A DNA stretch of 64,000 bases. Origin: Acidobacteriota bacterium. GTDB taxonomy: Bacteria > Acidobacteriota > Blastocatellia > Pyrinomonadales > Pyrinomonadaceae. Numbering within the stretch: position 1 is the first letter of the stretch; each line of letters starts with the position of its first letter. The DNA is taken from the NCBI GenBank assembly GCA_025463125.1, contig JAOAPX010000161.1, forward strand, positions 1 to 64,000, in the 5' to 3' direction. The notes under the pieces are model-generated. The model made no database searches, had not been told where the DNA came from, and saw nothing but the letters and a program-made list of their open reading frames with translations. Of this stretch, positions 22,052-24,523 are shown one piece after another. The position numbers were made by a program, and so were the translations under genes.

Positions 22052-23476
22052 TCAATAAAAAAGATTTCCGCCTTTTTGAGATTTCGCGTCCTGAAATTGC
22101 CGGGCGTCTGTGCGGCGCTCGCTGATGCGTTCCTCGGTCGTGTTGCGCGTTATTACTTCGTATAAAATCGCCTGCTTGTTTTCTTTTTTGCGCAGAATCC
22201 TGCCGAGGCGCTGGATGTGTTCGCGAGACGAACCGGAGCCGGAAAGGATTATGGCGACAGAAGCGTCTGGAATATTTACGCCTTCGTTTAAGACTTTTGA
22301 GGTGGCGAGCGCCAGCACATCGCCTTTGTTAAAGGCTTCGAGCCAGAAACGGCGTTCCTTGACGTTTGTTTCGTGCGTGATCGCCGGCACTAGATAATCG
22401 TTTGAAATGCGGTAAACCATTTCGTTTTCGGCGGTGAAAATTAAAACTTTATCGCTGCGGTGGCGGACGAGCAAATGCTGCAAAACGCGCAGTTTGGCGT
22501 CGGTTCCGAGCGCGATTTTTTTCGAGTTTCGGTAAGCTTTCATGGCGCGCCTGCCGTCCTCGCTGCGCGCGCTCTGCATTATAAAAGTTTTCCAGCCGTT
22601 GATCGAGCCGAACGGGATGTTTCGCGCGCGCACGAACGAGCGGAAAATTTCGCGCTCGCGTTTGTAGACTTCGCTTTCCTCGGCGCTTAGATCGACCTCG
22701 ATGCGCTCGATTATATAATCGGCGAGATATTCGCCCGCCAATTGCTGCGCTTCGAGCCGAAAGACGAATTTGCCGACGAGATTTTCGAGCAGCGAATCGT
22801 TGCCGTCGGCGCGGTCGGGCGTCGCCGAAAGCCCCAGACGGAAAGGCGCGAGCGCAAATTCCGCCGCGTATTTATAGCCTTCCGACGGCAAATGATGACA
22901 TTCGTCGAAAATAATCAGCCCGAATTGATTGCCGATGCGTTCCTGGTGCCGGAAAGCCGAAGCGTAAGTCGTCACGGTAATCGCGCCGATCTCGTAAAAA
23001 CCGCCGCCGATCAAACCGATTTCCGCGTCGAACGTCGAAAGAAGAAGGTCATACCATTGATTCATCAAATCGAGCGTCGGCACGACGACGAGCGTTTGCC
23101 GATCGCACATTTCGATCGCCATCGTCGCCACGTGGGTTTTTCCCGCGCCGGTCGGCAAAACAACGACGCCGCACCGCCCGTTTGCGCGCCACGCTTCGAT
23201 CGATTCGGTTTGATACGGGCGCGGCTCGACGTGAAACTTTTGCTTGAAATCGAAAACGGCGTATTTTTTAGCTTCGTCCGCATAAGCGGTTTTTGCGCGA
23301 ACGAATTCTTTGATTACTTCGCGGTACAAAAACGCGGGCGCGCGAAATTGACGCGTGCGCGCGTCCCAGACGAAAGCGCCCGGAACCGAATCCAGCTCGC
23401 CTGCGTTTTCCAAAATTAATGTTCCCGATTCGTATTTGAGTACAAACCCGTTTTCAATCGAAGATGTAATGCTCAC
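22052..23476 (-). CDS. XPB-like superfamily 2 DNA helicase
   Basis: A 474-residue helicase related to eukaryotic and archaeal XPB. An N-terminal region (1-85) matches the damage-recognition part. Motif I is LPTGAGKTH (about 107), motif Ia is VVPTLDLMNQW, motif II is FDECHH (about 190), motif III is LGLSATPDR, and motif VI is QRLGRILRKKENKQ (about 425). It probably unwinds DNA in repair. The usual partner nuclease of archaeal-type XPB (Bax1) is not adjacent. The start is a GTG inside a 13-bp tandem duplication, with no ATG nearby. Confidence 0.88.
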   Translation of the reverse strand: MSITSSIENGFVLKYESGTLILENAGELDSVPGAFVWDARTRQFRAPAFLYREVIKEFVRAKTAYADEAKKYAVFDFKQKFHVEPRPYQTESIEAWRANGRCGVVVLPTGAGKTHVATMAIEMCDRQTLVVVPTLDLMNQWYDLLLSTFDAEIGLIGGGFYEIGAITVTTYASAFRHQERIGNQFGLIIFDECHHLPSEGYKYAAEFALAPFRLGLSATPDRADGNDSLLENLVGKFVFRLEAQQLAGEYLADYIIERIEVDLSAEESEVYKREREIFRSFVRARNIPFGSINGWKTFIMQSARSEDGRRAMKAYRNSKKIALGTDAKLRVLQHLLVRHRSDKVLIFTAENEMVYRISNDYLVPAITHETNVKERRFWLEAFNKGDVLALATSKVLNEGVNIPDASVAIILSGSGSSREHIQRLGRILRKKENKQAILYEVITRNTTEERISERRTDARQFQDAKSQKGGNLFY

Positions 23477-23494: not shown

Positions 23495-23687
23495 TAGCAA
23501 GAGTATGAAGAAACTTTACTGCCTGTCAAACGCTTTTTCGCAGCTCGACCAATCGAAAACCCGCAATGTAAACCGCGCAATTTTAGTATCGAACCGATTC
23601 GGCTTTTAATAAGATGAAGAGCCTTTTAAATATAAAAACCATTTTAGATAAAGCGCTTTTTATTTTCTATTTATCTTTGAAACGCTA

Positions 23688-23703
23688 TGGCACAGCCATT
23701 GCA
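23688..23703 (+). promoter_or_regulatory. Sigma-54 type -24/-12 promoter
   Basis: TGGCAC, five bases, then TTGCA. The GG and GC pairs are separated by exactly 10 bp, which is the strict requirement of RpoN. The predicted start is near 23714, giving a leader of about 120 nt to the gene at 23833. Within the leader lies a perfect inverted repeat GTACG-AAAAA-CGTAC (23729-23743). A palindrome AAAGCGCTTT (about 23650-23659) upstream could mark an activator site. The rest of the 356-bp gap holds no gene. Confidence 0.7.
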
Positions 23704-23832
23704 GATTCGTAATCAAAGCATTTTGATTGTACGAAAAACGTACTCAAAATTTTAATAAAATATGTAATGACGGTAAAACTGTTCCGAATTTCCGGAAGGC
23801 TTTACCGGAAAAATAACAAGGGGAAATAAAAT

Positions 23833-24426
23833 ATGAACGAAACAACAGGACGCACACCAATGGTAACCGGGCTTTTTAATGACAGAGATAGCGCAGAACG
23901 CGCTTATTCGTCGGTCGAAAGCCGCGGCTATAGTAGAGATGATGTTAATTTGATGATGTCGGACGAATCTCGAAACAAACATTTCGGCGAAGGCACAGCC
24001 GACACGGAACTCGGCAGTAAAGCTCTCGAAGGCGCGGGAACCGGTTCGGCTATCGGCGGAACATTGGGCGCGATTATCGGCGGCATTGCCGCAATCGGCA
24101 CAAACGTTCTGCTTCCGGGTTTGGGCTTAGTTGTAGCCGGACCAATCGCAGCGGCTTTAGTCGGCGCGGGCGCCGGCGGTTTAACAGGCGGCTTGATCGG
24201 CGCGCTGATCGGATCGGGTATTCCTGAAGAACACGCGGCGGAATATGAATCAGGCGTCAAAAACGGCGGAATTTTCATGGGCGTAAACGCACGCAACCAG
24301 GAAGATGCGGATTACTTCCAGAATGAATGGAACAATCACGGGCAGAAAATCTACAACACCGCCAGAGGAACCGGTTCGAGCGGAATATCAAACAGCACGA
24401 CTACCGGCGGCAATCAATCTTTCTAA
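23833..24426 (+). CDS. Stress protein with glycine-zipper membrane region
   Basis: A 197-residue protein. The N-terminus (about 10-45: VTGLFNDRDSAERAYSSVESRGYSRDDVNLMMS) matches the general-stress YflT-like domain. Residues about 65-135 are a long Gly/Ala glycine zipper (GTGSAIGGTLGAIIGG and GAGAGGLTGGLIGALIGSG) that can insert in a membrane. The C-terminal part (EEHAAEYESGVKNGGIFMGV) is typical of the same family. The tail is disordered. It has AAGGGG before the ATG and a strong terminator behind, and sits behind a sigma-54 promoter, fitting a stress-induced single gene. Confidence 0.85.
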   Translation: MNETTGRTPMVTGLFNDRDSAERAYSSVESRGYSRDDVNLMMSDESRNKHFGEGTADTELGSKALEGAGTGSAIGGTLGAIIGGIAAIGTNVLLPGLGLVVAGPIAAALVGAGAGGLTGGLIGALIGSGIPEEHAAEYESGVKNGGIFMGVNARNQEDADYFQNEWNNHGQKIYNTARGTGSSGISNSTTTGGNQSF

Positions 24427-24487: not shown

Positions 24488-24523
24488 AAAAAAAGGGCAG
24501 CTTCACGCGGAGTTGCCCTTTTT
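24488..24523. terminator. Terminator after the stress protein
   Basis: AAAAAGGGCAGCT and AGTTGCCCTTTTT form a stem (one mismatch) with an 8-nt loop and T runs on both strands. Confidence 0.85.

Follow-up and report, generated by a model that had tools for sequence, protein, structure and literature searches.

Does a bacterium of the family Pyrinomonadaceae (Acidobacteriota) place a stress gene under sigma-54, and if so, which activator would work at its promoter? The question arises in a 64-kb stretch of one contig (the window, meaning all 64,000 nucleotides analysed), where a preliminary description had pointed to a TGGCAC-N5-TTGCA sequence, with 10 bp between GG and GC, about 130 bp before the gene of a stress protein. 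The sequence is indeed there. It occupies positions 23688-23703 of the forward strand (TGGCACAGCCATTGCA), with GG at 23689-23690, GC at 23701-23702 and exactly 10 bp between them, in agreement with the TGGCAC-N5-TTGCW pattern, and it is a canonical -24/-12 box. No other match to TGGCAY-N5-TTGCW occurs in the window, even with one mismatch allowed, and 129 bp separate the end of the box from the start of the open reading frame (ORF) at 23833. By the sigma-54 -12/+1 convention, which places the start 12 nt after the C of the -12 element, transcription is predicted to begin at about 23714 on the forward strand. Between 23400 and 24700 no sigma-70-like promoter is found on the forward strand, all five matches there being on the reverse strand. 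A gene for an XPB-like helicase (22052-23476, reverse strand) diverges from the stress gene and has a good sigma-70-like promoter (23502-23529).

The ORF (23833-24426, forward strand) encodes a 197-aa glycine-zipper membrane protein with a predicted strand-helix-strand unit flanking the zipper on each side. The earlier label of YflT-like is fair as a distant one: the protein itself scores 15.9 bits against YflT (PF11181), where the Pfam gathering cut-off is 26.2, and its DUF1269 match is below the cut-off as well, but 25 of 29 members of its family match YflT at E<0.05, the best at 1.7e-6. It is at best a distant relative of YflT/DUF1269, a family of stress proteins. The predicted structure is of moderate confidence (pLDDT 63), and its comparison with the PDB gave no significant match. 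An intrinsic terminator-like site follows the ORF on the same strand (24490-24523), and the gene looks monocistronic. A stable hairpin, the second in the leader, lies at 23771-23807 just 5′ of the ribosome-binding site; a SAM-III match to the same positions is weak and far under its cut-off, and an RNA family search of the leader and terminator returned sub-threshold matches only.

The preliminary description had proposed looking for similar promoters and for sigma-54 activator genes elsewhere in the genome, and both are present. Pattern searches, by which the regulon of this genome was sampled, find 24 exact TGGCAY-N5-TTGCW sites in the assembly (3.79 Mb, 201 contigs) vs. 6 for the reversed control pattern, so perhaps three quarters of the sites are real. 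CGGCAY-N5-TTGCW, considered as a second class of box, is not enriched here (16 sites vs. 13 reversed), and hence TGGC boxes alone were used for this genome. The sigma factor itself is encoded by a single, complete rpoN (527 aa, with AID, CBD and DBD domains), and eleven activators carry a strong sigma-54 interaction domain.

The box is also kept before homologues of the window gene. A box score of at least 25 is reached in 33 of 46 homologue upstream regions. Markov shuffles reach it in 2.5% of cases, and the reverse strand in 5 of the 46. The regions are all from the family except for one gene, counted twice, some genomes supply several paralogues, and related genomes are not independent observations. 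When the promoters are aligned on the box, the flanks diverge and little is conserved besides the box and one downstream element. Outside the family, where homologues reach up to about 75% identity at the protein level, a box of at least 25 with an intact TTGC is absent from all the Hymenobacter, Massilia, Janthinobacterium and Myxococcales homologues examined. Five Hymenobacter loci score 25-26 solely by virtue of a GCACC-N4-GGTGC palindrome. A true box precedes the homologue in one MAG labelled Chlorobiales. Since the box is found before family homologues and is missing from those of the four other groups, the sigma-54 wiring, as read from these comparisons, is a property of the lineage and not of the gene itself. 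Palindromes of the GCACC-N4-GGTGC type (e.g., TGGCACCGCTGGTGCA) stand at a constant distance, about -106/-112, before many Hymenobacter homologues (L104, L111, L114, L128, L138, and others) and are possibly the operator of another regulator.

A sigma-54 promoter calls attention to the DNA around it, and here the GTACG/CGTAC palindrome of the leader, which had been reported earlier with no role given to it, is likely to be a binding site for the activator. The palindrome (GTACGAAAAACGTAC, 23729-23743; about +16 to +30 of the predicted transcript) is one of two copies at this promoter of a 15-bp dyad of the approximate form GTAYTGAWTCARTAC, the other being GTATCGAACCGATTC at 23586-23600. The two putative activator sites, scoring 10.7 and 10.5, start at +41 and -102 from the start of the box, respectively, both within activator range. 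The class to which the palindrome belongs, GTAYG-N5-CRTAC, has just two copies in the genome, the second of which is 100 bp upstream of the sigma-54 box of a GlsB-like stress gene.

De novo motif search in the promoters of this genome alone gave weak motifs, little above those from shuffles, and relatives' promoters were therefore needed. In the promoters of window-gene homologues the 15-bp dyad emerged with a log-likelihood of 75.7 (18-20 in shuffles), and in GlsB promoters with 55.2 (about 21 in shuffles). A position weight matrix (PWM), built by hand from sites of other genomes and shaped in part by relatives' homologues of two of the targets, was scanned over the promoters of this genome. 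Scores of at least 9 were found at -97 to -106 in six promoters (those of a CxxC small protein, GlsB, the paralogue of the window gene, L062, L063 and the window gene) and at +40 to +45 in those of DUF5670, L050, the CheY-like regulator and, again, the window gene. The dyad thus has two places, one about 100 bp upstream and one, nearly fixed, downstream, and the latter recurs in the promoters of window-gene homologues, of GlsB and of other sigma-54 genes. With the position limits set at -110 to -95 and +38 to +46, 9 of the 24 sigma-54 promoters carry such a dyad where 0.19 are expected, although the limits were narrowed after the hits had been seen and the resulting p-value is optimistic. With no selection of position, a dyad of at least 9 is present between -200 and +90 in 11 of the 24, vs. 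about 2-3 expected. The +40 to +45 element was also considered as the -10 box of a second promoter and rejected, as inspection found no matching upstream hexamer.

Among the eleven activators, one stands out. Encoded at G000:C100:33595-35118, the C100 activator is an NtrC-type enhancer-binding protein with receiver, AAA+ and Fis-type HTH domains (PF00072, PF00158 and PF02954, all over their cut-offs) and a loop of the GAFTGA type in the variant form GSFTGA. It is the sole one of the eleven whose own gene is preceded by high-scoring dyads (12.2 and 15.7) and a sigma-54 box. Most of its full-length orthologues have dyads of 12-16 bits upstream of their own genes, usually with a sigma-54 box. In eight further orthologues that had no part in the PWM the scores are 10.5-14.9 bits, while 34 control stretches taken from the loci of other activators peak at 10.6; in one genome, G009, the dyad of the activator gene lies +44 from its box. 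L003, which at 81% identity is the closest orthologue, carries the box and no dyad of at least 7, and six further family genomes have an activator homologue with no dyad before its gene. In part of the clade the activator seems to be autoregulated. Its HTH (GNKQAAANLLGLYRPRLY) contains a helix, YRPRLY, that none of the other activators of this genome shows, and the same helix is retained in those six family genomes without the autoregulatory dyad, whose homologues are 55-57% identical. From these associations we infer that the C100 activator binds the 15-bp dyad.

The gene belongs to a cluster, conserved in several genomes, with histidine kinases (those adjoining it are of CHASE-type and PAS-HK-REC), a small membrane protein, a glycine-zipper protein and a VWA protein. 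A GlsB or DUF5670 gene lies near the activator gene in four genomes (G027, G009, G014 and G018). Across the class, 60 of the 118 genomes searched have the activator. One genome (G006) has target genes with boxes and an activator homologue no better than 42-43%; another of the same genus (G118) has the activator homologue.

Several features can be read directly in the DNA: the box and its conservation, the dyad and its positions, the domains of the activator, its gene cluster and the dyad-bearing promoter of its own gene. The complete rpoN, the conservation of the box in the family, its enrichment in the genome, and the dyad with its candidate activator strongly support the earlier proposal that the gene of the 197-aa protein is controlled by sigma-54, binding and expression being inferred. 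We consider, with a probability of about 0.75, that 23688-23703 is a working sigma-54 promoter in a stress/envelope regulon driven by the autoregulated C100 activator. The adjacent CHASE-type and PAS-HK-REC kinases would probably set the phosphorylation of the activator. Once phosphorylated, it would bind through its HTH to the dyad, whether this lies about 100 bp upstream or about 15-30 nt into the transcript, and would oligomerize there. Using ATP, it would then open the sigma-54 polymerase complex at the box, and it would also switch on its own gene. The regulon would include the window gene and its paralogue, genes of GlsB/YeaQ-type, DUF5670, small glycine-zipper and secreted proteins and, in relatives, LysM genes.

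The downstream copy of the dyad, which we take to act as an enhancer, is also where the main competing explanation applies. The promoter could be a true sigma-54 promoter and the dyad be bound by some other protein, the downstream copy being an operator that blocks elongation. The nearly fixed position at +40 to +45 is easier to understand for an operator that borders the open complex than for an enhancer that can be moved freely, which keeps this roadblock a rival for the downstream copy. However, the same dyad is found in many of these promoters at about -100, a usual position for an enhancer, and it also precedes the gene of the activator, where it outscores the control loci. Moreover, for FlrC, sites located beyond the start have been documented as true enhancers (PMC6504787). 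On balance we regard the operator as unlikely. Far less probable is that the palindrome works as an RNA stem-loop affecting stability or translation and has no relation to the box. The window dyad does fold as a hairpin with extended arms, and the fold of the leader is better than that of shuffles (z = -2.2), but the element that relatives have at this position is often asymmetric (CGAAAATCGTACAC), and in other promoters the dyad is upstream, i.e., outside the transcript. That the box is a functionless chance match, with another sigma factor driving the gene, is the least credible explanation: although about 6 chance matches of its quality are expected per genome, the box persists in family homologues while its flanks diverge, it is missing from homologues of other phyla, dyads are linked to it, and the forward strand offers no sigma-70-like alternative.

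A sigma-54 promoter driven by the C100 activator finds parallels in known systems. FlrC, which controls Vibrio flagellar genes, is likewise an NtrC-type activator of a two-component system acting at sigma-54 promoters from sites downstream of the start (putative sites in our case). In contrast, the targets here are stress/envelope genes, the dyad is different and also occurs about 100 bp upstream, and the C100 activator seems to regulate its own gene in part of the clade. The ZraSR/NtrBC-type systems have the same REC, AAA+ and Fis-HTH activator beside histidine kinases, and autoregulation has been reported for ZraSR (PMC12316311), whereas here the partners are the CHASE kinase, PAS-HK-REC, VWA and glycine-zipper proteins, with another set of targets. 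PspF has no receiver domain and drives other effectors. It nevertheless provides, in the phage shock response, a precedent for sigma-54 serving membrane stress genes (PMC3162934), so that the earlier description of sigma-54 control here as unexpected was fair but a little overstated.

What, then, of the sigma factors usually in charge of stress? A search for sigma-70 factors with region 3 in the assembly (94% complete) found one, in an RpoD-sized frame of 588 aa (G000:C153:4764-4994, L312), and no SigB-, RpoS- or FliA-type factor. It seems that part of the stress response runs on sigma-54 instead. The count covers region-3 factors alone, so that replacement of the usual stress sigma factor by sigma-54 is offered as a hypothesis. 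The targets (YflT-like, GlsB/Transgly_assoc and small membrane proteins) resemble the general-stress genes of SigB, RpoS or EcfG, but those regulons differ from the present one in promoter type and in the presence here of a single region-3 sigma-70 factor. It is conceivable, although we would put it below even odds, that in the Pyrinomonadaceae and part of the class the general stress response, for which SigB, RpoS or EcfG are responsible elsewhere, is run by sigma-54 together with a single autoregulated activator under phosphorylation control, which works from either of two set positions, about 100 bp upstream or within the transcript. The control of stress genes in this hard-to-culture group appears to be little studied: our literature search found nothing on the subject, and two surveys of sigma-54 regulons make no mention of Acidobacteria (PMC12316311; PMC3162934). 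The idea is testable, since the candidate activator, the DNA site and a list of targets are all specified. A natural set of promoters that have one putative activator site in common, placed upstream in some and within the transcript in others, should also be useful for studying the effects of enhancer position.

The genes downstream of the boxes of this genome include those of GlsB/YeaQ-type (PF04226), DUF5670 and the paralogue of the window gene, in addition to glycine-zipper and other small secreted proteins, the CheY-like regulator and a pilin. Among GlsB-type homologues of the family, a forward box of at least 25 is present in 15 of 30, concentrated in the closer orthologues. In several genomes GlsB and a LysM-type gene are divergently arranged, with a sigma-54 box before both (L191, L192, L195, L200 and L208 are such pairs), and in most pairs a single strong dyad lies within the GlsB leader and, at the same time, upstream of the LysM box. 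The type IV pilin-like gene (L066, G000:C121:14160) has a sigma-54 box and no strong dyad, as expected if it has a different activator. The CxxC small-protein family was rejected as a consistent member of the regulon, just 7 of 26 homologues having a box of at least 25. In several leaders of CxxC genes (L221, L233 and L239), units resembling AACGAACAAGGGGAAGGT are repeated immediately before the start codon.
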